Numbered from the stretch's first letter, positions 4,059 to 44,778 are shown. The stretch is DNA of 63,755 bases from Subtercola boreus (GCF_003399625.1 NZ_NBXA01000053.1:1-63755), one strand, 5' to 3'. Notes: generated by a model from the letters alone, not told the origin. Made by a program: numbers and translations.

Positions 4059-4072
4059 GGGACCTTTGGCAC
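4059..4072 (+). promoter_or_regulatory. DevR/DosR-type box (site I)
   Basis: GGGACCTTTGGCAC fits the GGGAC-N4-GNCCC pattern with the right arm as GGCAC. It lies about 90 bp before the DUF883-like/USP/bAERF operon. Confidence 0.6.
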
Positions 4073-4104
4073 TGGGCGGCGCGTACGGGGAGGGGCTGAA
4101 TGGT

Positions 4105-4140
4105 GTGGGAGGGTCGGCCGATCGCCCGAGGGCCTCCCAC
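4105..4140 (+). other. Inverted repeat in the leader of the 4161 operon
   Basis: GTGGGAGG at 4105-4112 pairs with CCTCCCAC at 4133-4140 around a GC-rich 20-nt spacer. It ends 20 nt before the start codon, so it could form an mRNA hairpin or be a protein-binding site. Role unknown. Confidence 0.4.
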
Positions 4141-4160
4141 TACTCGAAGGACGACATCGC

Positions 4161-4481
4161 ATGAGCACTCCGCAGGACGCCACGCCGGACACGGCGATCT
4201 CCACCGTCGCAGACCACGCCCACCACTCCATCGACCGCATCGCCGGAGTCACCAGGACCGCTGAGAACGATGTCCGGGCTTCCATGCGCGACGGCGTGAG
4301 GGCGGCAAAAGACGTCAAGGCGAGGGCAACGGCAGGAGCTGCTGACGGCCGATCGCAGGCGAGATCGACGGTTGCGACGTTCAACGACCGCGCGTCCGCA
4401 CACCCCGGGTTCCTGTTCGCCGCCGGAGCAGGGCTCGCACTCGGCGCCGTTCTCGTTCGCGCTGCCATCCGCCGCCTCTAG
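4161..4481 (+). CDS. DUF883/ElaB-YqjD-like membrane-anchored protein
   Basis: This 106-residue protein has an amphipathic Ala/Arg/Asp-rich helical region (about residues 10-80) followed by one C-terminal membrane segment (HPGFLFAAGAGLALGAVLV) and a basic tail AAIRRL. That is the architecture of the DUF883 (ElaB/YqjD) family, in which inactive ribosomes can be tethered to the inner membrane in stationary phase. The start has AAGGACG upstream. It leads an operon with a universal stress protein (27-nt gap) and a bAERF-type protein behind a DevR-type box, consistent with dormancy or stress. Ribosome binding here is inferred from the family only. Confidence 0.6.
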   Translation: MSTPQDATPDTAISTVADHAHHSIDRIAGVTRTAENDVRASMRDGVRAAKDVKARATAGAADGRSQARSTVATFNDRASAHPGFLFAAGAGLALGAVLVRAAIRRL

Positions 4482-4508
4482 GTTCTATACGACGTAGGAG
4501 ACGCAGCT

Positions 4509-11861: not shown

Positions 11862-12082
11862 TGTGGAGATCCTGTCTTATGTGTTTCGCGGTGGTGACCT
11901 GCAGAGGCCGTAACGAGGGATGCTTCGGCTGACGCCAGCTGTGGGATCGCTTTGGCTTCGGTAGCCGAACCGGTCGGTTCGAGGGAGATTGTCAGTGCAC
12001 ATCTCGTTTCGTTCGGGAAAGCTGTGCAGAACTTTTCTGTTGATTACGTCGCAACTCTGACCGAAGAATCGTTCGTGCTGCA

Positions 12083-12096
12083 GTGCCGTTGGTCCC
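12083..12096 (-). promoter_or_regulatory. DevR/DosR-type box (site J)
   Basis: On the minus strand this reads GGGACCAACGGCAC inside TTCGGGACCAACGGCACTG. That 19-mer is also found exactly at site K (21759-21777) before the SDR gene. It lies about 220 bp before the tiny acidic protein/GH3 operon. Confidence 0.6.
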
Positions 12097-12101
12097 GAAC
12101 A

Positions 12102-12538: not shown

Positions 12539-13123
12539 CTAGCGGTCGTCGTGCATGATGAGTACGGGGCAGTGCGCGTGCTCGGCGCAGGCTGTGCTGA
12601 CAGAGCCGAGGAGCAGGCCGGCGAACCCGCCGTGGCCGCGGCTGCCGACGACGAGCATCTCCGCTCCGCGGCTCTCATCGATGAGGATCTCCGCCGGGTA
12701 CCCCTGCCGAATCGTCTGGGTAAACCACGCCGGGGCTGACCCGTCGAAGACCTGGTCCACGGCGTCGGCCATGATCTGCTCGGCGTCGGCCCGGGGAGAC
12801 CAGTCGGAGAACCCGTAGCTGCCGAATGCGCTGGGGTTGTGCCAGACGACTACGCCCTGCACGCTCGCGTTCGCTCCGGTCGCAACGAGTATCCCGCGTC
12901 GCAGCGCATCGAGGGATTCTGCGGAACCGTCGAGCCCGACGACAACGCGGGTGGTTCGCGGATGCGCTGCCGGGGTACCGAATTCTGTTGAGGGCGCCCG
13001 GTCGTAGTCGTCGGTTGCGACACCGGTGCCGTCGACGCCGAATCGGGAGACCCTGCTGTCGGATATCTCATCGGCCGGAAGGCCGGTTTCGTTATGCGTG
13101 TCGTGCGTGGTTGGGGTGGTCAT
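12539..13123 (-). CDS. Universal stress protein, single UspA domain
   Basis: The 194-residue protein has a 57-residue disordered N-terminal extension, then RVVVGLDGSAESLDALRRG. An intact ATP-binding signature (GSRGHGGFAGLLLGS) and HCPVLIMHDDR follow. It is close in layout to the USP at 4509. I chose the ATG at 13123 rather than the tandem ATGs at 13186 because DevR-type site L (13160-13173) lies between them and should be upstream of the transcript. First gene of a USP-VOC operon. Confidence 0.88.
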   Translation of the reverse strand: MTTPTTHDTHNETGLPADEISDSRVSRFGVDGTGVATDDYDRAPSTEFGTPAAHPRTTRVVVGLDGSAESLDALRRGILVATGANASVQGVVVWHNPSAFGSYGFSDWSPRADAEQIMADAVDQVFDGSAPAWFTQTIRQGYPAEILIDESRGAEMLVVGSRGHGGFAGLLLGSVSTACAEHAHCPVLIMHDDR

Positions 13124-13159: not shown

Positions 13160-13173
13160 GGGCCGAAGGTCAC
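13160..13173 (-). promoter_or_regulatory. DevR/DosR-type box (site L)
   Basis: The minus strand reads GTGACCTTCGGCCC. It ends 37 bp before the ATG at 13123. If the box is centred near -41 as in DosR promoters, the message would be nearly leaderless. Confidence 0.55.
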
Positions 13174-17485: not shown

Positions 17486-17802
17486 GAGGGGTCCTTCGTG
17501 TCGGTGTTCACGGGGGTGGCGTTGGGCTTGCTGAACATCTGGAGCATCCGGTCGGTGACGACGTACCCGCCGAACACGTTCGCGGCGGCGAGAACGCCGG
17601 CGATGAAGGTGAGCACGTACCCGGTCGGGCTGTCGGCAAGTGCCGCGGTCACGATTGCACCTGCGATGACGACACCGTGGATGGCGTTGGCCCCTGACAT
17701 CATGGGGGTGTGCAGGGTTGAGGGGATCTTGCTGATCACCTCGACACCCACGAGCAGGCTGAGCACGAAGATCGCCAGGTTGCTGAAGAGCTGCTCGATC
17801 AT
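17482..17802 (-). CDS. pntAb: NAD(P) transhydrogenase subunit alpha part 2 (membrane)
   Basis: The 106-residue protein has three hydrophobic segments (FVLSLLVGVEVISKIP; ANAIHGVVIAGAIV; YVLTFIAGVLAAANVFGGY) and the GGYVVTDRML end typical of the alpha-2 subunit. It supplies the membrane part that is fused to PntA in enterobacteria but separate in many actinobacteria. It overlaps both neighbours by 4 nt, so the three pnt genes are translationally coupled. Confidence 0.93.
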   Translation of the reverse strand: MIEQLFSNLAIFVLSLLVGVEVISKIPSTLHTPMMSGANAIHGVVIAGAIVTAALADSPTGYVLTFIAGVLAAANVFGGYVVTDRMLQMFSKPNATPVNTDTKDPS

Positions 17803-19184: not shown

Positions 19185-19198
19185 GGGACCTTGGTCCT
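19185..19198. promoter_or_regulatory. DevR/DosR-type box (site A)
   Basis: GGGACCTTGGTCCT is one of the most symmetric boxes in the window. It lies in the pntAa/ALDH divergent gap, 46 bp centre-to-centre from site B. Confidence 0.65.
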
Positions 19199-19230: not shown

Positions 19231-19244
19231 AGGTCGAAGGTCCC
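19231..19244. promoter_or_regulatory. DevR/DosR-type box (site B)
   Basis: The minus strand reads GGGACCTTCGACCT. Together with site A it could serve pntAa on one side and the ALDH gene on the other. Confidence 0.6.
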
Positions 19245-21727: not shown

Positions 21728-21761
21728 AATCGTACCGCCGATGTTCGTCTGGGGAAGGTTC

Positions 21762-21775
21762 GGGACCAACGGCAC
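21762..21775 (+). promoter_or_regulatory. DevR/DosR-type box (site K)
   Basis: GGGACCAACGGCAC within TTCGGGACCAACGGCACTG, identical over 19 bp to site J. It lies 72 bp before the SDR start codon. Confidence 0.65.
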
Positions 21776-21846
21776 TGTCTGGCTGGAAGGACCTCGATCA
21801 TGCTGGGGTTCTGCGGCACACGACCGCAGAAGTGAAGAGGTTTGAG

Positions 21847-28518: not shown

Positions 28519-28555
28519 CCCACCTCAACCCGGCATCAATCAAGGAGCAATCATC

Positions 28556-31812: not shown

Positions 31813-31832
31813 GGTGTGCTCCGGGGTTTGTC

Positions 31833-33206
31833 TCAGTGGTGGAATGCGGGTTGGGTTTCGATGGGCATGGGGGAGTCCAGTCGGTTGAGGTAGTCCGTCT
31901 GCTTGGCCATGTCGACGAGGAACTTGTCGGCGAGGTCCATGCTCATGCCGTTTCGCACCACGATGCGCTGAACGGTGATGTCTTGAAGGTCTGCCGGCAT
32001 CGGATACGCCGGTACCAGCCAACCCTCCGTTCGCAGTCGATCCGAGAGGTGGTACAGCGTCCAGTTCTTCGAGTGGTCGTCTTTCAGGCGCCAGGCGAAG
32101 ACAGGAATATCGGTGCCATCGTTCCAGAGTTCGAAGGGGCCGAGTTTCGCAATGCCGGCGGCCAGATATGTGGCGACATCGTGCGATGCCTGCTGAACCT
32201 GGGTGTAGCCGTCTCGGCCGAGCCGGAGGAACAGGTAGTACTGCAGCAGCACCTGGGCTGCCGGCCGGGAGAAGTTCAACGCGAACGTCGGCATATCTCC
32301 ACCGAGGTAGCTGACCTTGAAGATGAGGTCTTCCGGCAACAAATCGACGGAGCGCCAGATGACCCAGCCGAGCCCGGGGTAGACGAGTCCATACTTGTGG
32401 CCGGACGTGCTGATCGAGTGGACCCGTTCGAGGCGGAAATCCCACTCGAGGTCAGGCTGAAGGAACGGAGCGATCATGCCACCCGACGCCGCATCGACGT
32501 GGATGGCGACATCGAGCCCCGTTTTCGCCTGGATAGCATCGAGGGCCTCAGCAATACGTTTCACCGGTTCGTACATTCCGGTGTAGGTGACTCCGAGAAT
32601 CGCGACGACTCCGATGGTGTTCTCATCGACGAAGGCGTCGAGCCCGACGCCGTCGAACGTCTTGTGTTCTTCGCTGATCGGTACGTAGCGGGCCTCGATG
32701 TCCCAGTAGTTGCAGAACTTCTCCCAGCAGACCTGAACGGCGGAACTCATGACCATGTTGGGTCTTTCGGTTGACTTGCCTGCAGCCCTTCGGCTTTGCT
32801 GCCAGCGTCGTTTCAGGGCTAGGCCGCCCAGCATGCAGGCCTCCGATGACCCGACCGTCGACGTGCCGATCGTGCCGGCCGGGTCTGGACAGTTCCACAA
32901 CTTCGCGAGGATGCGCCAGCAGTTCTCTTCGATCGCCGCGGTTTGCGGATACTCGTCTTTGTCGATCATGTTCTTGTCGAACGACTCTGCGTACAACCGT
33001 TTCGCGTGATCATCCATCCAGGTACCGACGAACGTGGCCAGATTCAATCGGGCGTTGCCATCAAGCATCGTCTCGTCGTGCACGATCTGGTAGGCGGTTT
33101 CGGGCAGCATCTGATCGTCGGAAAGTTCGTACTTCGAGGCGACGGTATTCTCGCCAGGCCGGGCGAACAACGGGTTCACTGTGACGAATTTGCGGTCGTG
33201 TTCCAT
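31833..33206 (-). CDS. gadB: Glutamate decarboxylase
   Basis: The 457-residue PLP enzyme shows VGSSEACMLGGLALKRRW, HVDAASGGMIAPF (Asp contacting the PLP nitrogen), and the Schiff-base Lys in STSGHKYGLVYPGLGW. Length and motifs match bacterial GadA/B. It converts glutamate to GABA and CO2, consuming a cytosolic proton. AAGAGG precedes the ATG. It is second in an operon led by an SPFH protein and followed by gadC and glsA, a complete glutamate-dependent acid-resistance set behind DevR-type box F. Confidence 0.95.
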   Translation of the reverse strand: MEHDRKFVTVNPLFARPGENTVASKYELSDDQMLPETAYQIVHDETMLDGNARLNLATFVGTWMDDHAKRLYAESFDKNMIDKDEYPQTAAIEENCWRILAKLWNCPDPAGTIGTSTVGSSEACMLGGLALKRRWQQSRRAAGKSTERPNMVMSSAVQVCWEKFCNYWDIEARYVPISEEHKTFDGVGLDAFVDENTIGVVAILGVTYTGMYEPVKRIAEALDAIQAKTGLDVAIHVDAASGGMIAPFLQPDLEWDFRLERVHSISTSGHKYGLVYPGLGWVIWRSVDLLPEDLIFKVSYLGGDMPTFALNFSRPAAQVLLQYYLFLRLGRDGYTQVQQASHDVATYLAAGIAKLGPFELWNDGTDIPVFAWRLKDDHSKNWTLYHLSDRLRTEGWLVPAYPMPADLQDITVQRIVVRNGMSMDLADKFLVDMAKQTDYLNRLDSPMPIETQPAFHH

Positions 33207-33235
33207 GGAAAACCTCTTCTTCTTCGTGGGTGACG

Positions 33236-34057
33236 TCAGGTCGTGGCGAGTCGGGCAAGTGTCGCGGTCTCGGTCACTGCTGCCGCGGTCGCGGTTTCTT
33301 TGGCAAGGAAGGACCCGAGTTCGCTGATAGTGCTCATCAGCGGCGCGGGGAAGACGACGGTGGTGTTCTTGTCGACGCCGAGCTCGATGAGGGTCTGCAG
33401 GTTTCGGAGCTGCAGGGCGAGCGGGTGAGCCATCATCGTGTCGGAGGCTTCACCGAGCGCTGCGGCGGCAAGCGCTTCGCCCTCGGCGGCGATGATCTTT
33501 GCCCGCTTCTCACGCTCGGCTTCGGCCTGTTTCGCCATTGCCCGTTTCATCGTCTCAGGCAGTTGGATGTCTTTGAGCTCCACCAGTGTGACTTCCACGC
33601 CCCAGTCGAGGGTTGTCAGATCAAGGATCTTCCTGATGTCCGCGTTGATGATGTCTGTTTCGGCGAGCATCTCATCGAGAGTGTGTTTGCCGACAACCTT
33701 CCGCAGCGTGGTTTGGGCAATCTGGTCTATCGCGGCGTTGACGTTCTCGATGGCGACGACCGACTTGACTGCGTCGACGACCCGGAAGTAGGCGACGGCT
33801 GAGATGTCGACGCTGACGTTGTCTTTGGTGATGATGCCCTGGGACTGGATCGGCATAGTGATGATCCGCAGCGTCACCTTCGTGAGCCGGTCGGCGATCG
33901 GGATGATGATGGCAAGGCCCGGCTTCTTCGTCCCGATGACCCGGCCGAAACGGAACTGCACCCCCATCTCGTACTGCGTGACGACGTGGATCGCGAGCCC
34001 CAGCGCGATGATCACCAGAATGCCCACAACCACCAAGACCATCAGGAGGGCGGTCAT
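33236..34057 (-). CDS. SPFH/stomatin-prohibitin family membrane protein
   Basis: The 273-residue protein has one N-terminal membrane helix (MVLVVVGILVIIALGLAIHVV). The SPFH domain follows (QYEMGVQFRFGRVIGTKKPG, VKSVVAIENVNAAIDQIAQTTLR) and then a coiled-coil-like AKQAEAEREKRAKIIAAEGEAL stretch. Stomatin-type slipins organise membrane microdomains and can modulate channels and transporters. The ATG at 34057 has AGGCGG, and it overlaps the stop of a 26-codon upstream ORF (ATGA). As leader of the gad operon it may scaffold GadC or membrane proteases, but that is inference. Confidence 0.87.
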   Translation of the reverse strand: MTALLMVLVVVGILVIIALGLAIHVVTQYEMGVQFRFGRVIGTKKPGLAIIIPIADRLTKVTLRIITMPIQSQGIITKDNVSVDISAVAYFRVVDAVKSVVAIENVNAAIDQIAQTTLRKVVGKHTLDEMLAETDIINADIRKILDLTTLDWGVEVTLVELKDIQLPETMKRAMAKQAEAEREKRAKIIAAEGEALAAAALGEASDTMMAHPLALQLRNLQTLIELGVDKNTTVVFPAPLMSTISELGSFLAKETATAAAVTETATLARLATT

Positions 34058-34134
34058 GAGACACCGCCTGAAGATCTCACCGGGATGGGGCAAGGCCCGG
34101 TCGTGATGGTGTACTCGGTCGGTGAATCGATCAT
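34054..34134 (-). CDS. Short upstream ORF (26 aa) coupled to the SPFH gene
   Basis: ATG 34134 follows an excellent CTAAGGAG site and opens a 26-codon ORF beginning MIDSPTEYTITTGP. Its TGA overlaps the SPFH ATG by 4 nt. The ackA leader has a similarly placed 9-codon ORF (44867-44896) coupled in the same way, and the DNA upstream of the two is homologous. It may act as a leader peptide governing translation of the gad operon rather than as a functional protein. Confidence 0.5.
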   Translation of the reverse strand: MIDSPTEYTITTGPCPIPVRSSGGVS

Positions 34135-34149
34135 GAAACTGCTCCTTAG

Positions 34150-34200
34150 GGCATCGGTGAGAACCGCTGCCAAGGACCGGAGCAACACGGCCGACACTAC
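34150..34200 (-). promoter_or_regulatory. Conserved promoter/5' leader of the SPFH-gad operon
   Basis: The minus strand carries TAGTGT (34199-34194, a plausible -10 about 31 bp from the centre of box F), then GTTGCTCCGGTCCTTGGCAG, then a hairpin CGGT-TCTC-ACCG (34066+89 to 34155; bases 34155-34166). The same order and near-identical sequence occur in front of ackA at 44800-44850, where the stem is CGGTG-TTT-CACCG. Conservation of the stem with a changed loop suggests an mRNA structure. Confidence 0.5.
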
Positions 34201-34223
34201 GCCGGCGGTGGTTCCTGCTGGTA

Positions 34224-34237
34224 GGGACTTTGTACCC
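34224..34237 (-). promoter_or_regulatory. DevR/DosR-type box (site F)
   Basis: GGGACTTTGTACCC on the plus strand. Read towards the SPFH gene it is GGGTACAAAGTCCC, matching GGGTACTAAGTCCT before ackA in both sequence and distance to the leader. Confidence 0.62.
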
Positions 34238-34345
34238 ATTTGCAGGGTGCCAACGGAGCCGCGCGTTCGCTTGTCGGACGTTGCGGCCGCTCGTATTTGG
34301 TCGGCGGCCTTGACATCGGAGCGTTCCGGGGAGAGCCTGTGGGAA

Positions 34346-34359
34346 GTCACTCTGGCCCT
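34346..34359 (+). promoter_or_regulatory. DevR/DosR-like box (site E)
   Basis: GTCACTCTGGCCCT lies inside AGTCACTCTGGCCCTTGGTG, a 20-mer repeated exactly in front of the GH65 gene (site G). Distance from this 20-mer to the start codon is 33 nt in both cases. Confidence 0.55.
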
Positions 34360-34397
34360 TGGTGTCGTTCGAACACGCGAATGAACCGAGGACTGCC

Positions 34398-34730
34398 ATG
34401 ACTGACGCGCTCACCACCACGACTGCCGAGTGGGTCGATGACGCACCTGAAACCGCCAAGCTGCGTGCACAGCTTGACGAAGCCCTGATCCTGGAACACG
34501 CATCGGGTCGGGCGTGGCGGGTATGTGACTCGCGGGTACCCGTCGGGTCTCAGGACAGATGTGTTGGCTTTGTCGAAGAACGCGACGGTCTCTACGAAGT
34601 GATGCAGGTCACTGAGACATTCATCTGGACCACACTCGGTTCGATGCGGGCTGCGCTCGATCACCTCGTTGCCACCGCCGAGTTGAGGACCTTCGCCTCT
34701 GTGGAGGGCGCCCCGACCACGATTGGCTGA
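34398..34730 (+). CDS. Hypothetical protein (110 aa) leading the phosphoketolase operon
   Basis: The product has an acidic N-terminal part (ETAKLRAQLDEALILEHASG) and a compact C-terminal part (CVGFVEERDGLYEVMQVTET, SMRAALDHLVATAE) with two cysteines and no membrane segment. I recognise no family. The ATG at 34398 is supported by ACCGAGGA, conserved at the same distance in front of the GH65 gene. Located 126 bp before xfp in the same direction and behind box E, it may be a small regulator or accessory protein of the fermentation operon. Confidence 0.65.
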   Translation: MTDALTTTTAEWVDDAPETAKLRAQLDEALILEHASGRAWRVCDSRVPVGSQDRCVGFVEERDGLYEVMQVTETFIWTTLGSMRAALDHLVATAELRTFASVEGAPTTIG

Positions 34731-34856: not shown

Positions 34857-37250
34857 ATGACGTCAACGACCATCGCGACGCAGAACACGGCCACCCTTTC
34901 CCTAGACCTTGCCGAGAGGATGAATGCGTATTGGCGAGCGGCGAATTATGTTTCGGTCGGACAGTTGTACCTGTACGCGAATCCGCTGCTCCGTGAGCCC
35001 TTGAAACTTGCCCATGTGAAGCCACTTGTCGTCGGGCATTGGGGCACGACGCCGGGACAGAATTTCATCTACGTGCATCTGAACCGGGTGATCACCAAGT
35101 ACGACCTGGACATGTTCTACATCGCGGGCCCAGGTCACGGCGGCGCCGCACTGGTGGGGAACACGTATCTGGAAGGCACGTACAGCGAGGTCTATCCTGA
35201 CGTCAGTCAAGATGAAACCGGTCTCACCCGGCTGTTCACACAGTTTTCTTTCCCCGGCGGGATCTCCAGCCACGTCGCGCCGACAACGCCGGGCTCCATC
35301 CATGAGGGCGGTGAGCTCGGCTACTCCCTGAGTCACGCCTTCGGCGCCGCTTTCGACAACCCCGATCTGATCGTGGCGTGCATCATCGGGGACGGTGAGG
35401 CCGAAACCGGGCCGTTGGCGACCTCCTGGCATTCCAACAAATTCCTCGACCCGATCACCGACGGTGCGGTGCTACCGATTCTGCATCTGAACGGCTGGAA
35501 GATCAGCAACCCCACGGTACTTGCCCGTATCGAGGGAGAAGAACTCGAACAATTCCTCCGCGGTTGCGGCTGGGACCCCATCTTCGTCGAAGGTGACGAC
35601 CCTGCAGTGATGCATCAGCTGATGGCAGCTGCGCTGGATCAGGCCGTCGAAGACATCCGCGACACGCAAGCGGCCGCACGCAGCGCGAATGCCAGCTCAA
35701 GGCCCCGGTGGCCGATGATCGTCCTGCGATCGCCGAAAGGATGGACCGGCCCGAAAGAGGTCGACGGTCTCAAGATCGAGGGAACCTTCCGCTCACACCA
35801 GGTGCCGCTCCTGGTGGATCCGGAGCATCCCGAGCACGTCGCGCAACTCGAAGAATGGATGCGCAGTTACAAGCCCGAGGAACTCTTCGACCACGACGGC
35901 CGACTCATCCCGGAACTTGCTTCCCTCTCACCGGTCGGGGATCGCCGGATGGGCGCCAACCCGCACGCGAACGGCGGGCTGCTCCTGCACACCCTGCGGA
36001 TGCCGGACTTCCACACTCACGCCGTGAGTGTCCCGGAACCGGGCTCCGTGGGAGCCGAAGACACCGGCGTGCTGGGTCAGTTTCTCCGTGACGTCGTCTC
36101 GTTGAACGAGCAGGGAAGAAATTTTCGCATCTTCGGACCCGACGAAACACTCTCGAACATCCTCGGGGCCGTTTTCGACGCCACCAACCGGCAGTGGAAC
36201 GCACAAACCTCACCGGACGACGAATACCTCGCCCCCACCGGGCGGGTGCTGGACTCAATGCTCAGCGAACACCAGTCGGAAGGGTGGCTCGAAGGCTACC
36301 TCCTCACCGGCCGCCATGGTCTCTTCAACTGCTACGAAGCGTTCATCCACATCGTCGATTCCATGTTCAACCAGCACGCGAAATGGTTGAAAGTCACGAA
36401 AGAGCTGCCCTGGCGGCGCGGAATCGCGTCCCTGAACTACCTGCTCACCTCGCACGTGTGGCAACAGGACCACAACGGCTTCACCCATCAGGATCCTGGC
36501 TTCCTCGACCATGTCGTGAACAAAAAAGCCGACATCGTGCGCGTGTACCTGCCGCCGGACGCGAACACTCTCCTGTCCGTGTTTGATCACTGTCTACGAA
36601 GCCGCGACTACGTCAACGTCGTCGTCGCCGGCAAACACACCATGCCGCAATGGCTGACGATGGACCAGGCCGTCGTGCACTGCACCGAAGGCATCGGAAT
36701 CTGGGACTGGGCCAGCAACGACCAACACGATGAACCGGACGTGGTGATGGCCTGCTGCGGGGACACCCCAACCCTCGAAGTTCTCGCCGCCGTGAGCATC
36801 CTCCGCGAGCATCTGCCCGAGCTGAAAATCCGGGTCATCAACGTGGTAGACCTGATGCGCCTGCAGCCCAGCACCGAGCATCCCCACGGCCTCACCGACA
36901 CCGACTACGACTCGCTCTTCACCACCAACACACCAATCGTTTTCGCGTTCCACGGATACCCTGGGCTCATTCACCGCCTCACCTACCGCCGCACCAACCG
37001 CAACATGCATGTCCGCGGCTACAACGAGGAAGGCACCATCACCACACCCTTCGACATGCGCGTCCAAAACGGTCTGGACCGGTACCACCTTGTCCAAGAT
37101 GTCATCGACCGCCTTCCACAAACCGGCTCAGAGGGCGCTCATCTCAAGCAGATCGTGACCGACAAACTCGTCGAACACAACAAATACATCGACACCCACG
37201 GCCAGGACATGCCCGAGATCCTCAACTGGAAGTGGCAGAGCACCCCGTGA
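34857..37250 (+). CDS. xfp: Xylulose-5-phosphate/fructose-6-phosphate phosphoketolase
   Basis: The 797-residue ThDP enzyme has [20 protein letters not shown], the ThDP/Mg motif [18 protein letters not shown], and [15 protein letters not shown] in the middle. Length fits the family (about 790-830). It cleaves xylulose-5-P or fructose-6-P with phosphate to acetyl-P plus glyceraldehyde-3-P or erythrose-4-P. Acetyl-P can go straight to AckA (encoded at 44893) for ATP. The ATG at 34857 has CGGAG upstream. It is coupled through a GTGA overlap to the aldolase gene, so operon xfp-fba-pgm-ATPase is clear. Confidence 0.96.
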
Positions 37251-38329
37251 GCGGCGATCTAGAAGCCATGGCACAGAACTTGGTGGCCGGCGCCAAAGGC
37301 CTCCTCGCAATCGATGAAAGCATCGGTACCTGCAACCGCCGGTTCGGACGATTCGGAATCCCTCAAACATCGGAGATGCGCCGTTCCTGGCGGGAGACGC
37401 TGATCACGACCCCGGGACTTTCCGAGTTCATCAGCGGCGCCATCCTCTTCGACGAAACGATCGAGCAGAAGGCGAGCAACGGGACCCGTTTTCTGGAGAT
37501 CCTCGCTGGCGTTGGTATTGCCGCCGGAATCAAGGTAGACACCGGTACGGTGCCGCTCGCCGGCCATCCCGACGAGAAGATCACCGAGGGTTTGGATGGT
37601 CTCCGGCAGCGACTGGAGCGGTACTCGATGTTGGGGGCCTCGTTCGCGAAGTGGCGGGCGGTTTTCGCAATCGATCACGGAACTCCCAGTGCGGCGTCGG
37701 TAGCCGCCAACTCGAACGCCCTGGCACGGTATGCGGCGCTGTGTCAGGAAGCGGGAATGGTTCCCGTCGTCGAACCCGAAGTACTCATGCGAGGCACGCA
37801 CTCCATCCAGGAATGCGAAGAAGCCACCGAGACTGTGCTTCGATCGGTTTTCGTCGCCCTCCAGCTTCACGGTGTGCAGCTCGAGGGGATGATTCTCAAA
37901 CCCAACATGGTCGTCCCCGGCGCCGACAGCCCGAACCAAGTAGCGGCCGAGCTCGTGGCGCAGGCGACAGTGCGATGTCTGCGCCGCGTCGTGCCCGCCG
38001 CCGTTCCCGGTGTGCTCTTCCTCTCTGGCGGCCAACCCGGGCCCATCGCCACCGCCCGGCTGAACGCAATGAATTCGACCGGCCCAGACAGGCCCGGCCC
38101 GCAACCGTGGGCGCTGGGATTCTCTTTCGGTCGTGCCATCCAACAGCCGGCACTGGCAATTTGGGGCGGAGCTTCGTCCGAGAGGGGCGACGCCCAACTA
38201 TCGGTACTGCACCGTGCACGCTGCAACACAGCCGCACGCCAGGGACTCTACGAACCGGCAATGGAGAACCACCAAACCCCAGCGATACACCCATATTCAG
38301 CGGCGGAACGTACAGCGTTACTGGCGTGA
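37247..38329 (+). CDS. Class I fructose-bisphosphate aldolase
   Basis: The 360-residue enzyme carries [50 protein letters not shown] and the Schiff-base Lys in [10 protein letters not shown], then LFLSGGQ. This is the metal-independent class I aldolase, common in eukaryotes but found in some actinobacteria. The GTG at 37247 overlaps the xfp stop by 4 nt. A GTG 15 nt upstream is an alternative. In this operon it could link triose phosphates with fructose phosphates around the phosphoketolase. Confidence 0.9.
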
Positions 38330-38919
38330 TCTACTTCATCCGCCACGGCGAAACAGAATGGTCACTCACCGGAAAGCACACCGGTCAAACAGACATCCCC
38401 CTGACAACCCACGGAAAGAGTCAGGCACGCGCACTCACGCCACGGCTGCGCGATATCCCGTTCGCCGCCGTCATCTCAAGCCCCCTGCAACGAGCTGTCG
38501 AAACATGCCAGCTGTCCGGCCTTTTACTAACCGAAACCGTGCCAGACGTCGATGAATGGAACTACGGCCAGTACGAGGGGCTGACGTCTGACACGATCAG
38601 GGACACCCGGCCCGGGTGGGGCGTGTTCCGTGACGGATGCCCCGGCGGAGAGTCTGTCGACCAGGTTCAGCAGCGAGCCGACCGAGTCCTCAGCCGGCTA
38701 CGCAGGTACCCCGGTAATGTTGCGGTTTTCTCGCACGGCCAGTTCGGTGAAGCGTTGGCGGCCCGATGGATCGGGCGCCCGGTGCTAGAGGCGCAACACT
38801 TTCACCTCGACCCGGCGACGGTCAGCATCTTCCAGATCGACCCCGCACATCCGGCGGTGCCGGTCATCTCACTATGGAACAGCTCCGGCACGCTTCCCGG
38901 GAAAAAGGACGCACTATGA
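38326..38919 (+). CDS. Histidine phosphatase / phosphoglycerate mutase family protein
   Basis: The 197-residue protein begins [20 protein letters not shown], with the catalytic His in RHGE. It has SSPLQRAVETC, the Glu in WNYGQYEGLT, and the second catalytic His in VFSHGQFGEAL. This matches the broad-specificity phosphatase/cofactor-dependent mutase branch. The small size and lack of mutase-specific insertions favour a phosphatase. The GTG start at 38326 overlaps the aldolase stop by 4 nt. Its substrate in this operon may be a sugar phosphate. Confidence 0.87.
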   Translation: MIYFIRHGETEWSLTGKHTGQTDIPLTTHGKSQARALTPRLRDIPFAAVISSPLQRAVETCQLSGLLLTETVPDVDEWNYGQYEGLTSDTIRDTRPGWGVFRDGCPGGESVDQVQQRADRVLSRLRRYPGNVAVFSHGQFGEALAARWIGRPVLEAQHFHLDPATVSIFQIDPAHPAVPVISLWNSSGTLPGKKDAL

Positions 38920-41399
38920 CGACCCCATCGGCCACAGCACCCACCGCGCTCAAAGACATGTCGTTGGCTCAGATCGAAAAAAAACTCGTCTCATCCGCGA
39001 AAGGCATCAGCGGTCATGAAGCGGCACACCGGCTCCTGCAGTACGGTCCGAACGAGATCGCTGAGAAGAACGACAACCAGCTCCTGAAGTTTCTCGGCTA
39101 CTTCTGGGGCCCGATCCCGTGGATGATCGAAGCCGCCGTGATCCTCTCCGGAGTTCTGCAGCACTGGCCCGACTTCATCATCATTCTCGTGCTCCTGCTC
39201 GCCAACGCGGTCGTCGGATTCGTTGAGGAACGCCAAGCCGGCAATGCAGTGGCCGCTCTGAAAGCACAACTCGCCAGCACCGCAACCGTACTCCGTGACG
39301 GCACCTGGGCTGGATGCCCGGCCCGGGACCTCGTGCCGGGTGACGTCATCCGGCTACGCCTGGGGGACATTGTGCCAGCCGATGCCCGGCTCCTTGCCGG
39401 GGACCCCGTCGAAATCGACCAGTCCGCGCTGACCGGAGAATCCCTTCCCGTCACCGCGAAACCAGGCGACGCAGCCTACTCGGGCTCGATCCTCCGACAC
39501 GGCGAAACGGACGCGCTGGTCTACGCGACAGGATCCGATACCTACTTCGGTGCGACAGCACACCTGGTTCAGGAGGCGCACACGGTCAGCCACTTCCAAC
39601 GCGCCGTGTTGAAGATCGGCAACTTCCTCATCATCCTGGCCGTGGTCTTGGTCGCACTGATCGTCGTTGTCGCCATTGTTCGCGGTGATTCGCCCCTCAC
39701 GACCCTGCAATTCGCTCTCGTCCTACTCGTGGCGGCGATCCCCGTCGCGATGCCGACGGTTCTATCTGTCACCATGGCCGTCGGAGCGCGCCTGCTGTCG
39801 AAAAAGAAAGCAATCGTCACCCGGCTCTCCGCGATCGAGGAGCTCGCGGGTGTGGACATCCTCTGCTCCGACAAGACCGGAACGCTCACCCAGAACTCCC
39901 TGACCCTCGGTGGTCCTTTTCTGTCTGGCACGGCAACCACAGAGGAGATCGTACTGTGCGGTGCCCTGGCGTCACGGGCCGAGGACAAAGACCCCATCGA
40001 CCTCGCCGTCATCGGCGGCCTGCCACAATCAGTGCAGCTCTCTGACTACATCGTCACCGAATTCACCCCCTTCGATCCGGTACACAAACGCACCGAAGCC
40101 ACCGTCACCGGAAAAGACGGAACCACCTTCAAGGTCACAAAGGGAGCACCTCAGGTGATCCTCGCGATGGTCGCGGATCACACCGCTATCAAAACCAGCG
40201 TCGACAAGGCTGTTCACGACTTTGCTGCACGCGGCTTCCGCTCCCTCGGCGTGGCCCGCGCAAGCACAACAGGGTCTTGGGAATTCCTCGGCGTACTGCC
40301 CCTCTTCGACCCACCCCGAAAAGACGCAGCACACACCATCGCAACAGCAGGGCAGATGGGCGTCGCCGTCAAGATGGTGACCGGCGACCAGCTCGCTATC
40401 GCCAAAGAAACCGCCAAAAAGCTGGGCATGGGCACCAACATCCTCGATGCCTCCGGCCTCGGTGACGCCAAACACAACGAAACAGCTGACGTCACCGCCT
40501 CAATCGAAACGTCCGACGGTTTCGCCCAAGTGTTCCCTGAACATAAGTTCCACATCGTCGACATCCTTCAGAAGAACGGCCACATCGTCGGTATGACCGG
40601 CGACGGCGTGAACGATGCGCCGGCGCTGAAAGAAGCCGACTGCGGAATCGCTGTCGCAGGTGCCACGGACGCGGCCCGCGCGGCCGCAGCAATCGTGCTC
40701 ACGACACCCGGTCTTTCCGTGATCATCGACGCGATCAGGGAAAGCCGCCGCATCTTCCAGCGGATGAACAGCTACGCGATCTACCGCATCGCGGAGACTC
40801 TGCGGGTACTGCTGTTCATGACTCTCGCGATTCTCGTTTTCAATTTCTACCCGGTGACCGCGATCATGATCGTGCTGCTGGCTCTGATGAACGACGGCGC
40901 GATCCTAGCGATCGCCTACGATCACGTGCTCTACCGCAACAAACCAGAGAAATGGAAGATGCGTCCGGTTCTCAGCATCGCCAGTGTTCTCGGAATCATG
41001 GGCACGATTGCCGTTTTTGGGCTGCTGTTTCTCGCGCAGAACGTTTTCCATCTCAGCGGCCCGGAAGTGCAGACCATGATGTACCTGAAACTGTCAGTCG
41101 CCGGCCATCTCACGATCTTCCTTACGCGAACCCGTGGACCGTTCTGGTCTCAGCGCCCCGCCCGCATCCTTGTCATCGCAGTCTTCGGCACCCAGGCCAT
41201 TGCCACCTGCTTCGCCCTGTTCGGACTCTTCATGGCAGCCCTTCCCTGGTGGTGGGTCGCGTTCGTCTGGGGATACGCGATCGTCTGGGCGCTGCTGAAC
41301 GACCGAGTGAAGCTTGCCACCTACTGGGTTCTCGATCACCTGAAGACCCCTTTGACGACAGTGGGCCGCACGCGCGCCCTCACCCAGAACGCCCGCTGA
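38916..41399 (+). CDS. Plasma-membrane proton-translocating P-type ATPase (type IIIA-like)
   Basis: The 827-residue pump has the actuator motif DQSALTGESLPVT, the phosphorylated Asp in CSDKTGTLTQNS, the nucleotide-domain VTKGAPQVIL, the hinge GMTGDGVNDAPALKEADCG, and about ten membrane segments. The N-terminus is short and overall style matches fungal/plant and archaeal H+-ATPases. It would expel protons at the cost of ATP, which suits acid produced by the phosphoketolase pathway. The ATG overlaps the previous stop by 4 nt. Ion specificity is inferred. Confidence 0.9.
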   Translation: MTTPSATAPTALKDMSLAQIEKKLVSSAKGISGHEAAHRLLQYGPNEIAEKNDNQLLKFLGYFWGPIPWMIEAAVILSGVLQHWPDFIIILVLLLANAVVGFVEERQAGNAVAALKAQLASTATVLRDGTWAGCPARDLVPGDVIRLRLGDIVPADARLLAGDPVEIDQSALTGESLPVTAKPGDAAYSGSILRHGETDALVYATGSDTYFGATAHLVQEAHTVSHFQRAVLKIGNFLIILAVVLVALIVVVAIVRGDSPLTTLQFALVLLVAAIPVAMPTVLSVTMAVGARLLSKKKAIVTRLSAIEELAGVDILCSDKTGTLTQNSLTLGGPFLSGTATTEEIVLCGALASRAEDKDPIDLAVIGGLPQSVQLSDYIVTEFTPFDPVHKRTEATVTGKDGTTFKVTKGAPQVILAMVADHTAIKTSVDKAVHDFAARGFRSLGVARASTTGSWEFLGVLPLFDPPRKDAAHTIATAGQMGVAVKMVTGDQLAIAKETAKKLGMGTNILDASGLGDAKHNETADVTASIETSDGFAQVFPEHKFHIVDILQKNGHIVGMTGDGVNDAPALKEADCGIAVAGATDAARAAAAIVLTTPGLSVIIDAIRESRRIFQRMNSYAIYRIAETLRVLLFMTLAILVFNFYPVTAIMIVLLALMNDGAILAIAYDHVLYRNKPEKWKMRPVLSIASVLGIMGTIAVFGLLFLAQNVFHLSGPEVQTMMYLKLSVAGHLTIFLTRTRGPFWSQRPARILVIAVFGTQAIATCFALFGLFMAALPWWWVAFVWGYAIVWALLNDRVKLATYWVLDHLKTPLTTVGRTRALTQNAR

Positions 41400-41405
41400 C
41401 ATCCC

Positions 41406-44400
41406 CTACATATCCGACTCTCCGCTCAAAGCCACAACGAAGCGTTGACCGGACGACAATGTTTTGTGTTGCCCGTCGATATCCAGCTGAATGCGACGCC
41501 GCCGTCCTGCGTCAACCTGAACGCTGAGCCGGTCCTGGGTCAGTTCAACGCGAATACGCTGCTCCCGATACACGAGCACGAACGCGACCCTGTGCAGCTC
41601 CACCGGAAGTGCCGGGTGCAGCCACAGCGTGTCGCCCCGGATTTCTAGACCGGCATAGCAGCGGATCGCCATGTCCACCGACCCGGCCATCGCCCCCAGA
41701 TGAATGCCTTCGTGTGTCGTACCTTGATGGCCGCCGGTCAGGTCGCTGGTAAGGGCGCTGCCCAAAAGCTCCCATGACCGGGTGCGGTCCCGCCGCGCCT
41801 CCACCCACGACTCGACAACGTTGCTGAGCGTCGAGCCGCGGGTCGACCGCGCGATGTAGAAATCGACCGTACGAACGATGGTGCGCGCAGGCAGCGTGTA
41901 CCCCAGATCGGCGAAAATACCGCGAAGCTCCTCCGCGGAAAAGAGATACAGCAGCATGAGAACGTCAGCCTGTTTGGAGAGCCGGTAGTCGTTCGTGTTA
42001 AGGCCTTCCGCGTTCAGGATGAGGTCGAGCCGGCCCAGATTACCGTAACGGGCGCGATACGTGTCCCAATCGAACTCGGAGAGCGCCTCGTACCCTTCGA
42101 ACTGGCTGATCACCCCATCGGCATGGAAAACCACCCGCAGTTTCCGGCTGATCCGAGCCCATAATCGTGTCTCACCCGCGACCAGATTCAGCTGATCCCA
42201 CAGCGGCCCGCAATCTCGTCCTCTCAGAATAGTGATGGTCTGCAGCGCGCGTTTCAGCAGCCACGCGGTCATCACGTTCGTGTAGGCGTTGTTTCGAATT
42301 CCGCTACCCGGAGACCCCGGGTTGCCGTCATGGAACTCATCCGGCCCCATCACCCCGTCAATGTCGTAACGGTCATCGGCCGGGTTGTAGACAGCGATGC
42401 TGACAAAGAACCGGGCGACCTCGACGATCAACTCGGCACCCTCCCGGACCAAGAAATCCGTGTCACCGGTTGCCTCGTACAGCTGCCACGCACTGTAGGC
42501 GACAGCGAGACCGGCATGGTGTTCGAGGTGGGAGTTATCGGGCATCCACGACTGATTACGAGGGTTAAACAGCTCGGTTGGGGTCAGTTCACGGCCATCC
42601 ATTCCGCTTTGCCACGGGAACATCGCACCCGAATGCCCGTTAGCTCGAGCGGCTGCCCGGGCCTCTTCGAGGCGCCGATACCGGTACCCGGTCACTGATC
42701 GGCTGATGTCGGGCCGGCGGAGCGTGACTATTGGGTACACAAAGATCTCATCCCAGAAGATGTGACCGCGGTAACCCTCACCACTCAACCCGCGTGCGGG
42801 TATACCTGCATCCGCATCGGCTCGGCCAGCAGCGACAGTCTGCAAGACATGGAAGGTGTTCACGTTGAGAGCGAGGGAGCGAGCGGGACTATTGCTCTCG
42901 ATCTCAACGGCGAAGTCATCCCAGAGGGTTTGCCATTTCTTACGGTGCTCGTCTTCGAGTTCTGCCGGGTTCGGCGTTCGATCCATCCAGCGTTGCGCGG
43001 CCTCTGCCGGGGCCTCGACAGCGCGATCGTGTGAGGTCACCGCGACGACGGACTTGTCCACCCGAATCGGATGGCCCGGTGAAACCTGCACGTCGAACTC
43101 ATGCCCGATCCACGTGTCACCGTTAGTGATCAGTCGCCGGCCCGACTCGAGTTGCTCCTCGCCGCCGAGCACTCTCGTTCGTTGCACAAGCGCAATCCGG
43201 ATCTCAGACTGCGTCGTCATCACTTGCATCAGCACAGTGTCGGGCCCGGTGGCCTCCGCACGCGACGACACCAAATGCACATGAGCGAGCAACTGGTCTT
43301 CATCGACGTTCATGTTCGAGACCGCACCGTCGAGTGCGCTCTGGACAACAAACGCGCCCGACCAGTTTTCGGCCTCGATAGTCGTCTGCAACACGGCAAT
43401 GTGGGGTGATGCGAGAGAAATGAACCTGCGAGACGTCACCACAGTGACTTTGTCGCCGTCATGCCGGTAACGCACCTCACGGGTAAGCACGGCCGCTTTC
43501 AAATCAAGCTCCTGCGAGTAGGACAAGATCTCCGCCGTACCGGGTTTGAGCCAGGCCCCGCCCGGGACTCGCAGGCGAAGCGGCAACCAGTTCGGAGCGT
43601 TGACCAAATGTTCGTCATCATCCGTGCGGGTACCGAAATCCGTTGTCACCCGGTTGAAAACACCGGCGAAATAGGTGCCGGGATAGTGAACGTCATCTGC
43701 GGAAGCTTCGGCAGCAGCGCCACGTGTTCCCCAGTAGGCGTTACTCAGCGTGCACAGAGTCTCGCGGTCGCCCTCTGTTGCCGGATCAAAGCTGTCGTAC
43801 TTCAGCACCCACGGGTCCACCAACGAACCTGGTGAGGCGCCTGCGGCGGTGAGCTGACGCTCCCGGCTGAGGTCGAGTTCCCCCAAATCAGAGACGACAA
43901 CGTCGGCGCCCGCGGCCCGCAATCGCTCGCCCGCACCATCGCGGTCCATCCCCACGACCAAACCGAAACCTCCCGCGGCGCCCGCCTGGACACCAGCCGT
44001 TGCGTCCTCCACCATGGCCGCAGAAGCCGGTGTTACACCCAACTGCCCTGCCGCCTCAAGGAACACAGCCGGATCGGGCTTACCTGGAAGGTGCAGACGG
44101 ATCGCATCGTTACCATCTACACGAACAGAGAACAGATCCATCACCCCCGCAGCCGCGAGTACCGCAACGCAGTTCCGGCTCGACGTGACCACGGCCGTCG
44201 GCACTCCACGCCGCTGCAGGTGGCGCAGCAGGCGCACCGCGTCAGGAAATGCCGTCACACCGTCCTTGGCGATGACGAGGTCGAAGAAGTGTTGCTTACG
44301 CGCAGCCAACGCACGCACTGTCAACTGATCGTCGGGATCACCCACCGTGCCTTCCGGCAGCGTGATGTTGCGTGAGGCGAGGAAGGTTCGGATGCCGTCT

Positions 44401-44630
44401 TCTCGGGAGCGCCCGTCAACGTAACGGCGATAGTCGTCTGTCTGGTCGAAGGGTGACCCGCCGTTCGGCCCGAGTTTCGGGAGCACCTCGTCAAACAACT
44501 TCTTCCATGCGGCCGCGTGCACGAGCGCGGTTTCGGTAACCACTCCATCCATGTCGAAGACGATCGCCGCGTACGCGCAACGCCCCGAATGCAATATCGG
44601 GTACGCGGCATCGGCATCTGCAGCAGTCAC
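41406..44630 (-). CDS. Fused beta-phosphoglucomutase (HAD) and GH65 disaccharide phosphorylase
   Basis: The 1074-residue protein has an N-terminal HAD domain (about 20-235; FDMDGVVTETALVHAAAWKK, VTSSRNCVAVLAAAG, MVEDATAGVQAG). The rest is a GH65 phosphorylase with the catalytic Glu in GVMGPDEFHDGN and a C-terminal beta domain. GH65 enzymes split maltose, trehalose, kojibiose or nigerose with phosphate to glucose plus beta-glucose-1-P, and the HAD domain turns this into glucose-6-P without ATP. GTG 44630 is chosen because its upstream 53 bp align with the leader of 34398. Its 3' end is 6 bp from the convergent ATPase stop. Confidence 0.9.
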   Translation of the reverse strand: MTAADADAAYPILHSGRCAYAAIVFDMDGVVTETALVHAAAWKKLFDEVLPKLGPNGGSPFDQTDDYRRYVDGRSREDGIRTFLASRNITLPEGTVGDPDDQLTVRALAARKQHFFDLVIAKDGVTAFPDAVRLLRHLQRRGVPTAVVTSSRNCVAVLAAAGVMDLFSVRVDGNDAIRLHLPGKPDPAVFLEAAGQLGVTPASAAMVEDATAGVQAGAAGGFGLVVGMDRDGAGERLRAAGADVVVSDLGELDLSRERQLTAAGASPGSLVDPWVLKYDSFDPATEGDRETLCTLSNAYWGTRGAAAEASADDVHYPGTYFAGVFNRVTTDFGTRTDDDEHLVNAPNWLPLRLRVPGGAWLKPGTAEILSYSQELDLKAAVLTREVRYRHDGDKVTVVTSRRFISLASPHIAVLQTTIEAENWSGAFVVQSALDGAVSNMNVDEDQLLAHVHLVSSRAEATGPDTVLMQVMTTQSEIRIALVQRTRVLGGEEQLESGRRLITNGDTWIGHEFDVQVSPGHPIRVDKSVVAVTSHDRAVEAPAEAAQRWMDRTPNPAELEDEHRKKWQTLWDDFAVEIESNSPARSLALNVNTFHVLQTVAAGRADADAGIPARGLSGEGYRGHIFWDEIFVYPIVTLRRPDISRSVTGYRYRRLEEARAAARANGHSGAMFPWQSGMDGRELTPTELFNPRNQSWMPDNSHLEHHAGLAVAYSAWQLYEATGDTDFLVREGAELIVEVARFFVSIAVYNPADDRYDIDGVMGPDEFHDGNPGSPGSGIRNNAYTNVMTAWLLKRALQTITILRGRDCGPLWDQLNLVAGETRLWARISRKLRVVFHADGVISQFEGYEALSEFDWDTYRARYGNLGRLDLILNAEGLNTNDYRLSKQADVLMLLYLFSAEELRGIFADLGYTLPARTIVRTVDFYIARSTRGSTLSNVVESWVEARRDRTRSWELLGSALTSDLTGGHQGTTHEGIHLGAMAGSVDMAIRCYAGLEIRGDTLWLHPALPVELHRVAFVLVYREQRIRVELTQDRLSVQVDAGRRRRIQLDIDGQHKTLSSGQRFVVALSGESDM

Positions 44631-44668
44631 GGGCATCCTCGGTTCGTCCACTTCGGGGGCAGGCACCA

Positions 44669-44682
44669 AGGGCCAGAGTGAC
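44669..44682 (-). promoter_or_regulatory. DevR/DosR-like box (site G)
   Basis: The minus strand reads GTCACTCTGGCCCT within the 20-mer shared exactly with site E. It faces the GH65 gene. Confidence 0.55.
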
Positions 44683-44764
44683 TGATTTCAGCGCCACTCT
44701 ATCGTGGGCGGATGCCAAACGATCAAGGCGCCATTGAGATCTCAGAAGCACAACGCGGAGCCGT

Positions 44765-44778
44765 GGGTACTAAGTCCT
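44765..44778 (+). promoter_or_regulatory. DevR/DosR-type box (site F')
   Basis: GGGTACTAAGTCCT faces ackA and matches site F. A TAGTCT hexamer at 44801-44806, about 30 bp from the box centre, is the candidate -10. Confidence 0.58.

Follow-up and report, generated by a model that had tools for sequence, protein, structure and literature searches.

A predicted OsdR/DevR-type regulon with fermentation and acid-resistance genes in Subtercola boreus

Regulators and boxes of the window

The stretch of DNA analysed here, called the window below, is a whole contig of Subtercola boreus (NZ_NBXA01000053.1, 63,755 nucleotides; C53 among the 95 contigs of a genome of 4.12 Mb). It carries the genes of a DevR-type response regulator and its sensor kinase DevS, and palindromic boxes of the GGGRCC/GGGACT type, resembling those of DevR/DosR and OsdR, stand before genes of stress response, fermentation and acid resistance. 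An original prediction, made from the sequence, had described a DevR regulon arranged around its own regulator, with twelve intergenic boxes. This arrangement is supported by comparison with other loci, the boxes being concentrated on islands with recurring fermentation and stress genes. The regulon is very likely real and of the OsdR type; its fermentation and acid-resistance genes, an unusual content, are distributed over several islands. Ten of the twelve boxes stand; those at 34346 and 44669 do not.

The devR gene (23299–23943, minus strand) encodes a NarL-type response regulator with the Pfam domains Response_reg and GerE. The protein aligns over its full length with Mycobacterium tuberculosis DevR 3c3w (E 1.4e-69, 115 of 212 residues identical), and in this alignment Lys179, Lys182 and Asn183 are conserved, as had been predicted, together with D54, T82, K104 and R197. 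The adjoining devS gene (23943–25688, minus strand; start placed at 25646 by the gene caller) encodes a histidine kinase of the DosS/DosT type with the Pfam order GAF-GAF-HisKA_3-HATPase, which also matches the ATPase domains of DosS and DosT. Its first GAF domain matches DosT 2vzw with an E value of 4e-43 and DosS 2w3d with 4.4e-38. Residues H153 and Y175 correspond to His149 and Tyr171 of DosS, in a numbering with a PDB chain offset of 57 that was assumed since it places these two residues, and they are conserved in at least 90% of 16 aligned sequences. In DosS, His149 is the proximal haem ligand, and DevS of the window is probably a haem-binding protein.

Thirty-three stretches of the genome match DevR, of which the copy on contig C26 is 67% identical and the next paralogue 42%. 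The C26 copy belongs to a second devSR locus, where DevS is 61% identical and a TAG interrupts the devS frame. A third devS-devR pair has decayed to fragments on contig C20 (65.1–65.7 kb; L016:4063-4738), in an island where the DevR boxes are still present; in two relatives, genomes G003 and G006, an open, full-length DevS followed by a DevR match of 84–85% is found beside genes of the C20 type. The pair in the window is thus the only devSR of the genome with both frames seen open, and because of the decay on C20 and the TAG on C26 all islands are probably governed mainly by this pair.

The sites had been described by the 14-bp shape GGGAC-N4-GNCCC. A sequence of roughly this shape is present at all twelve coordinates; the exact shape is mostly absent, since the window holds only two exact matches, at 25746 and at 38600, the latter within a gene, which makes 25746 the only exact intergenic one. 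The sites are better described by a tighter motif, roughly RGGACC-WWN-GNCMY, and the literal pattern was dropped as evidence because its frequency in the window is not above chance. According to the gene calls all twelve sites are intergenic, provided that the universal stress protein (USP) gene at 12.5–13.1 kb starts at the ATG at 13123; a start at 13186 would break the count of twelve out of twelve. The predicted 19-bp identity between two sites is real and is shared with the 21762 box (21759–21777), with its minus-strand copy at 12081–12099 rather than at 12078–12096, which is not identical.

A matrix built from 26 published OsdR sites of Streptomyces coelicolor, which is independent of the window, was used to rank some 63,700 window positions. 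Site 26820 ranks first, 13160 third, 21762 fifth, 12083 sixth, 25746 seventh, 19231 16th, 19185 18th and 4059 38th; seven of the predicted sites are therefore among the 18 best positions and eight of the twelve rank high. In the OsdR table the core GGGACCTTCGGCCC is listed for SCO0167 (usp) and narG2, upstream of both. Sites 34346 and 44669 both rank at about 4,630, with a matrix whose training set excluded them their score is -0.1, and they were rejected as DevR boxes. Sites 34224 and 44765 were kept as weaker sites because a -10 box accompanies each, with the common spacing or a spacing that differs by one base, and a similar box and leader occur on contig C48.

The retained sites lie before genes for USPs, transhydrogenase, dehydrogenases, gad and acetate kinase; a promoter with such a site is not supported for phosphoketolase and GH65. 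The box at 4059–4072 (plus; score 13.2 on the window matrix described below, of which it is a training member) lies upstream of a 106-residue open reading frame (ORF), USP and baeRF2 genes, and that at 12083–12096 (minus) has a -10 box, CAGAGT, toward the GH3 side. The centre of 13160–13173 (minus, -10 GAACCT) is 43 nt from the USP ATG at 13123, and a leaderless promoter is predicted there. Between pntA (minus) and the aldehyde dehydrogenase gene (plus) lie 19185–19198, which has the top window-matrix score in the window (17.0, again a training member), and 19231–19244 (minus), with AAGGCT toward the aldehyde dehydrogenase. The box at 21762–21775 (plus, -10 CATGCT) is upstream of an SDR gene (21847–22581), 25746–25759 (plus) is placed between devS (minus) and a tandem-USP gene (plus) with CAAGAT toward the latter, and 26820–26833 (plus, -10 TACGTT) is upstream of a BON-domain gene. 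The box at 34224–34237 (minus), of the form GGGTACAAAGTCCC, has its -10 box, TAGTGT, oriented to the SPFH-gad operon, and the same box and leader recur on C48 (L019:1509). Lastly, 44765–44778 (plus) is upstream of ackA with TAGTCT one base off the common spacing; this -10 box is directed to ackA and not to GH65, which the prediction had also placed behind a site.

Box distribution and promoter geometry

A second matrix, the window matrix, was built from the ten retained sites and applied to samples of the genome. At a score of at least 10, the stretch C26:500–520 kb, chosen for its second devSR locus, holds seven intergenic matches (in 3.8 kb) and three coding ones. The stretch C20:41–81 kb holds eight intergenic (5.6 kb) and four coding matches; it was chosen because pattern matches clustered there and is not a blind test. 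Nineteen control stretches of 20 kb gave two intergenic (32.9 kb) and 12 coding matches (347 kb) at the same score, and six and 80 at a score of at least 8. Fisher's test against the controls gave 3.7e-6 for C26 alone and 1.3e-8 when C20 was included. Around devS in 80 named loci that span the Actinomycetota, 158 intergenic matches (179 kb) vs 69 coding ones (1,378 kb) were found at a score of at least 11, a box density 17.6-fold higher between genes than within them. It had been implied that genome-wide the matrix would match more often before genes than within them; in the samples scored this holds for the islands and the surroundings of devS, whereas the 19 control stretches are little enriched upstream.

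The pattern RKGACYWWNGDCMY occurs in 43 distinct places of the genome (45 rows, two palindromes being doubled), 20 of them in four islands: eight in the window between 4 and 27 kb, seven on C20, four at C26:484–513 kb and one on C48. The remaining 23 are about as many as in the reversed control (25 rows). The signal is restricted to the islands and, among the 80 named genomes, to DNA around devS. A good DevR-type box within the grpE frame beside dnaK (C3:191938; L018:5939) was read as probably due to chance.

The boxes keep a fixed distance to -10-like sequences. For the boxes of this genome, read in 56 directions, AnnnT has its A at offset 31 from the box centre 11 times and at offset 32 10 times, and at other offsets 2.2 times on average (standard deviation 1.4, highest 6). 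For relatives in the genus and family the two offsets are occupied in 21 and 7 of 70 directions (mean of the others 2.3), and in 79 named loci offset 31 is occupied in 74 of 332 (mean of the others 8.0, standard deviation 4.1, highest 25). The boxes of M. tuberculosis DevR targets were reported to overlap the -35 element (PMC3029386), and the spacing seen here would fit a box centred near -42.5, over the -35 element.

Start codons were scored as those of open, coding-like frames starting 42–43 nt from the box centre. Eight were found at the 28 boxes of the genome vs 1.2 expected (Poisson 3.5e-5), 16 vs 1.5 at 35 boxes of genus and family relatives, and 26 vs 8.9 at 171 boxes of named loci. With a start codon at this distance transcription should begin on the start codon itself, and the mRNAs concerned are probably leaderless. 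Predicted examples are the USP gene at 13123 of the window, the phosphoketolase gene on C26 and its S. boreus counterpart, and pntA on C20. Leaderless transcription was rejected for most window promoters: among the ten boxes only 13160 has a start at 42–43 nt in the frames scored, and the others would have leaders. Leaderless mRNAs are frequent in mycobacteria (PMC8022548); no statement of a fixed distance from DosR box to start codon was found in the literature excerpts on leaderless mRNAs and DosR promoters.

Islands and the leader element

The genes of the window were assigned by Pfam, in part also by tblastn. The USP gene at 12539–13123 (minus, Pfam Usp, start corrected to 13123) is followed by three subunit genes of NAD(P) transhydrogenase (16061–19064, minus; PNTB, PNTB_4TM, AlaDh_PNT) and an aldehyde dehydrogenase gene of the succinate-semialdehyde type (19314–20705, plus; Aldedh), which shows 80.2% DNA identity to an annotated succinate-semialdehyde dehydrogenase (SSADH) gene on a plasmid of Frondihabitans. 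USP genes adjoin the regulator, and BON, PNPOx, alcohol dehydrogenase and SDR genes are also present. Two tandem GAF-ANTAR genes (27889–29329, plus; 27889–28518 and 28427–29329, with GAF_2 and ANTAR domains) precede a gene string on the opposite strand (29280–34057, minus) for an SPFH protein (slipin), glutamate decarboxylase, a GadC-like amino-acid permease and glutaminase. A predicted pyridoxal-phosphate glutamate decarboxylase, antiporter and glutaminase thus stand together as in a GadB-GadC-glutaminase system of glutamate/glutamine-dependent acid resistance. These are followed by genes for phosphoketolase, a class I aldolase, a PGM-like protein of the histidine-phosphatase family and a cation P-type ATPase (34857–41399, plus), a HAD domain fused to GH65 (41406–44630, minus) and acetate kinase (44893–46026, plus).

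A regulon confined to the window is not supported, as there are similar islands on three other contigs, boxes being found in islands on C53, C20, C26 and C48. The C20 island has USP, SDR, transhydrogenase, alcohol dehydrogenase and PNPOx genes, a SOUL protein gene and an aldehyde dehydrogenase of another type (30% identical). That on C26 has USPs, SDR, phosphoketolase, glyoxalase, gadB with a gadC-like permease, and PNPOx. The C48 island, with two boxes, contains SDR, BON, ackA, transhydrogenase, alcohol dehydrogenase, PNPOx and aldehyde dehydrogenase genes. Islands on separate contigs, such as C48 and C53, could be neighbours.

Similar linkage was found in other genomes. The genes gadB-gadC stand beside devSR on C26 and in genomes G009 and G001, and phosphoketolase and USP genes do so in G008, which is of the same genus. 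In 17 of the 80 named loci, which include loci of Microbacteriaceae, Micromonospora, Pseudonocardia and Amycolatopsis, devS has a phosphoketolase gene no more than 10 kb away. Among 20 phosphoketolase genes linked to devS, a set that includes those of the window and C26 and S. boreus twice, 11 are preceded by a box at a distance of up to 400 bp, vs 107 of 1,987 random windows in the same loci; for pntA the count is six of seven.

In Antarctic Frondihabitans sp. PAMC 28766, boxes precede SSADH, BON and a USP/DevS pair on plasmids, gadB has a box 183 bp upstream, and gadB-gadC-glsA is annotated on plasmid 3. Twelve matches with a score of at least 10 were found in the two stretches examined, five on plasmid 3 and seven on plasmid 1. 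The occurrence of boxed devSR-USP-SSADH-BON and gadB-gadC-glsA modules there indicates that such modules can be plasmid-borne. Of these two plasmids (L247 and L248), plasmid 1 is rich in insertion sequence elements. In S. boreus, resolvase genes and a pRiA4b ORF-3-like gene lie at 21–806, 1008–1835 and 47903–48565, near the contig start and after the island. A plasmid search returned pieces in 17 records, none spanning 80% of the query. Contig C53 may be a plasmid or a mobile region.

A further element, a leader of the form GUUGCUCC ... GGCAGCGG ... Shine-Dalgarno (SD) sequence, precedes the SPFH-gadB-permease-glutaminase operon (34132–34186, minus) and ackA (44814–44869, plus). GTTGCTCCGGTCC-Y-TGGCAGCGG directly follows the predicted transcription starts of both, at 34186 on the minus strand and at 44814 on the plus strand. 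Genome-wide, GTTGCTCC-N4-12-GGCAGCGG has four matches, all in DevR islands, and the reversed control has one. A covariance model from 15 instances finds six leaders in the genome (two on C53, three on C48, one on C26); every one lies in a DevR island, and four had been used for training. Control DNA of 380 kb reached 12.8 bits at best. Leaders beyond the two of the window are located at L019:750, 1559 and 5994 and at L072:9007. Downstream of a leader in the C48 island, a short protein (L019:1139-1444) was noted with a weak match to a ribosome-hibernation family (S30AE, E 0.023). By eye, a 9-codon frame overlaps the start of ackA (44867–44896) and a 26-codon frame that of the SPFH gene (34054–34134); such short frames between leaders and ackA or SPFH are possibly translationally coupled.

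In the stretches examined, 34 leader matches were found, 12 from the genus and 22 from other genera. A DevR box with a score of at least 9.7 lies within 75 bp of eight of the 12 genus leaders, 42–44 nt before the leader in three, 48–49 in four and 65 in one. Such a box was found for one of the 22 others, itself the weakest match. A weak leader match outside the genus (L239:10490-10544, genome G099) stands before pntA with a DevR-type box 66 nt ahead, a layout like that of L019:5994 on C48. Outside the genus the leader precedes pntA, aldehyde dehydrogenase, gadBC and SPFH genes. It was rejected as a general companion of DevR, being absent at E up to 0.05 from two Frondihabitans stretches and from the 29 of the 80 named devS loci that were searched, S. 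boreus having been left out as a known positive.

A GAF-ANTAR gene was found in 12 of 20 fetched leader stretches (one on C48, two others of the genus). Among 199 genomes of the family, 15 (10 genera, including three Subtercola genomes) have a leader at E up to 1e-4, a cut set after the list had been viewed; at E up to 0.01 there are 44, mostly weak. An ANTAR homologue (E 1e-20) is present in 14 of these 15 vs 56 of the 184 others (Fisher 1.9e-6). In G004 (C1:743116; L179) a leader lies between GAF-ANTAR genes and a gadB homologue (89% to C26 gadB), with no DevR box.

Folding with RNAfold indicated, by eye, that the 5' end or the following CCNNGG pairs with the SD region in many leaders. When the SD regions were exchanged among 28 leaders the fold was weakened (9 of 2,000 permutations as stable) and the longest helix shortened (1 of 2,000); six of the 34 rows, one weak and five near copies, had been dropped beforehand, and related leaders of the same genome were retained. 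A competing hairpin, GUUGCU/GGCAGC, is possible in 33 of the 34 matches. Its covariation in RNAalifold is weak, with one pair changed on both sides over the 34 rows, a level reached by 16 of 500 shuffles, and a hairpin with one arm slid by three columns scored higher for covariation (0.126 vs 0.109) and paired 89% of cells. GUUGCUCC and GGCAGCGG show little or no variation in the alignment because the instances were found by that pattern. Rfam gave no match in the window at gathering scores and none in 34000–34450 at E up to 1. The classical pair of ANTAR-target hexaloops (A1/G4) was found in none of the 34 leaders, and a single such loop in four. The RNA element is possibly new.

The two sites that were rejected as boxes resemble the leader. 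The first (34346–34400, plus; GUCACU...GGUGUC) lies before the ORF at 34398 and phosphoketolase, and the second (44628–44682, minus; GUCACU/GGUGCC) before HAD-GH65. Both retain five of six hairpin pairs, with two positions changed on both sides. By this resemblance they are possible diverged leader copies; the covariance model lists neither.

Competing explanations and related systems

The results are best explained by an OsdR/DevR-type hypoxia regulon in a Microbacteriaceae genome, with DevSR of the window acting over dispersed islands, and this is considered quite likely. By analogy with its family, DevS would sense oxygen, nitric oxide or redox state and phosphorylate DevR. As suggested by the conserved contact residues and the conserved boxes, DevR would then bind GGGACC-WWN-GGCMC palindromes whose centres lie 31–32 nt before the A of xAnnnT and about 42.5 nt upstream of the predicted start, over the -35 element, and would act as an activator of the class II type. 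Several promoters (USP genes, C26 phosphoketolase, C20 pntA) would start on the start codon, and others would have leaders. The set of genes in the islands would suit a cell that survives low oxygen by fermenting to acetate while keeping redox state and pH in balance.

Several observations weigh against this explanation. On the OsdR matrix, sites 34224 and 44765 rank only 305th and 1202nd, and neither direction from 4059 or 19185 shows a -10 box with the common spacing. From 25746 there is none toward devS, so that autoregulation is unproven. The combination of A(-11) and T(-7) is present at seven of eight starts at 42–43 nt in the genome, at 10 of 16 in relatives and at nine of 23 in named loci, S. 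boreus being left out of the last. A box within 400 bp upstream was found for one of seven ackA, none of four gadB, one of three SPFH and one of six aldehyde dehydrogenase genes, some of which sit inside operons. The phosphoketolase gene of the window, which had been predicted to follow a site, has only weak matches within 400 bp, the best scoring 6.3; neither its direct control by DevR nor a normally spaced -10 box for GH65 is supported. On Frondihabitans plasmid 3, three of five box matches are within genes, and on plasmid 1 two of seven precede no listed gene. The counts are not independent, since relatives share promoters by descent and two of the loci (L089 and L095) are one S. boreus contig, and a gene caller trained on the window served for all loci. 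Pattern RKGACYWWNGDCMY was drawn up after the sites of the window, C20 and C26 were known. The first refined pattern, RGGACYWWNGNCCY, gave 15 rows genome-wide and 15 in the reversed control; clustering and position were therefore used in place of totals, and the signal is separable from chance solely by these. Finally, sequence, boxes, spacing and conservation are observed, and binding, signal, direction of regulation and physiology are inferred.

That the boxes are a high-GC palindrome picked post hoc with permissive mismatches agrees with the failure of two of the twelve sites and with the count of the literal pattern, which with one mismatch has 29 matches in the window vs 34.6 expected from shuffles, without enrichment. 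For the whole set this is very improbable in the light of the independent matrix, the C26 stretch, the controls, the 80 named loci and the fixed spacing to -10 box and start codon, although the single weak sites 4059, 34224 and 44765 could be due to chance. Another NarL-family regulator, for example the DevR paralogue of C26, might bind the boxes and leave DevR of the window with another role. The 33 DevR-matching stretches and the 67% identity of the C26 copy make this conceivable, but boxes of one kind surround the DevR genes of both the window and C26, identity drops to 42% at the next paralogue and boxes are dense around devS in the 80 named genomes, and this reading is regarded as improbable.

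Somewhat less improbable, though still unlikely, is that the fermentation and acid-resistance genes are governed mainly post-transcriptionally, by the GAF-ANTAR pair acting on the leaders, with the DevR boxes of gad and ackA secondary. Consistent with this are the leaders found where the gad and ackA mRNAs are predicted to start, the genes that leaders precede outside the genus, where 21 of 22 have no DevR box within 75 bp, the excess of ANTAR genes in leader genomes and the better fit of the leader 5' half to its own SD region than to those of other leaders. It is opposed by the absence of the classical ANTAR-target shape from all 34 leaders, by the weak covariation of the proposed 5' hairpin and by the lack of a leader match at most window boxes (USP, pnt, SDR, BON). 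A combination of both layers in the control of microaerobic fermentation and acid resistance is a tentative and rather doubtful proposal. DevR would transcribe the dispersed islands, partly as leaderless mRNAs, and a leader RNA of about 55 nt, the target of the GAF-ANTAR pair, would gate the translation of mRNAs for pnt, gad, SPFH, aldehyde dehydrogenase and acetate kinase, depending on whether the 5' hairpin forms or the leader pairs with the SD region. The GUUGCUCC...GGCAGCGG...SD leaders would be a new class, and Subtercola would have fused the layers by placing DevR promoters at or just before the leader. Its probability was lowered slightly because of the slid-hairpin control and the distances between boxes and leaders.

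If the OsdR/DevR-type regulon is confirmed, the best-studied bacterial dormancy switch would be extended to environmental actinobacteria, from persistence to a fermentative, acid-buffering life, and a system other than the pathogenic mycobacteria would be available for the physiology of DevR regulons. From the fixed spacing of box, -10 box and start codon, promoters can be predicted in many Actinomycetota in a form open to direct testing. Should the leader be an ANTAR target, it would represent a new RNA class and explain the role of the adjoining GAF-ANTAR pairs. DevR/DosR control of phosphoketolase or glutamate decarboxylase was not found in titles or beginnings of abstracts among the literature matches listed, most subscription journals being outside the coverage, and a DevR regulon with fermentation and glutamate-dependent acid-resistance content was not found described among the same matches. 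One candidate paper (PMC10581053) proved unrelated, the text seen containing 'Devriesea' and not DevR.

A DevR-type regulon outside mycobacteria is not new, since that of OsdR in S. coelicolor was described by electrophoretic mobility shift assays and transcriptomics (PMC5069765). Subtercola shares with OsdR/OsdK a GAF sensor kinase with a DevR-type regulator, the core GGGACCTTCGGCCC and, near the regulator, clustered boxes that cover genes for USP, zinc alcohol dehydrogenase and PNPOx (PMC5069765). Table 1 of that paper lists nitrate reductase, pyruvate phosphate dikinase and others, but not gad, phosphoketolase and acetate kinase, which Subtercola has instead (PMC5069765). Subtercola further differs in its boxes being in islands on four contigs and in its many promoters that look leaderless. 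Rhodococcus equi 103S is an actinobacterium with Xfp and predicted DosR boxes, which are mentioned apart in the text seen (PMC2947987). The leaders recall actinobacterial ANTAR-target RNAs, of which about 37% overlap the ribosome-binding site or start codon, in that they overlap the ribosome-binding site and occur in genomes, and often loci, with GAF-ANTAR proteins (PMC8164766); unlike these they have no dual A1/G4 hexaloop and have instead a possible GUUGCU/GGCAGC hairpin competing with SD pairing. With M. tuberculosis DosR/DevR the system has in common the domains and key residues of DevR and DevS, boxes overlapping the -35 element (PMC3029386) and USP members, and the mycobacterial box GGGACTTNNGNCCC (PMC6448022) may be compared with GGGACC-WWN-GGC in Subtercola. 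Unlike M. tuberculosis, Subtercola links the system to glutamate-dependent acid resistance and phosphoketolase. The gene content of the M. tuberculosis DosR regulon differs from that of the Subtercola islands.

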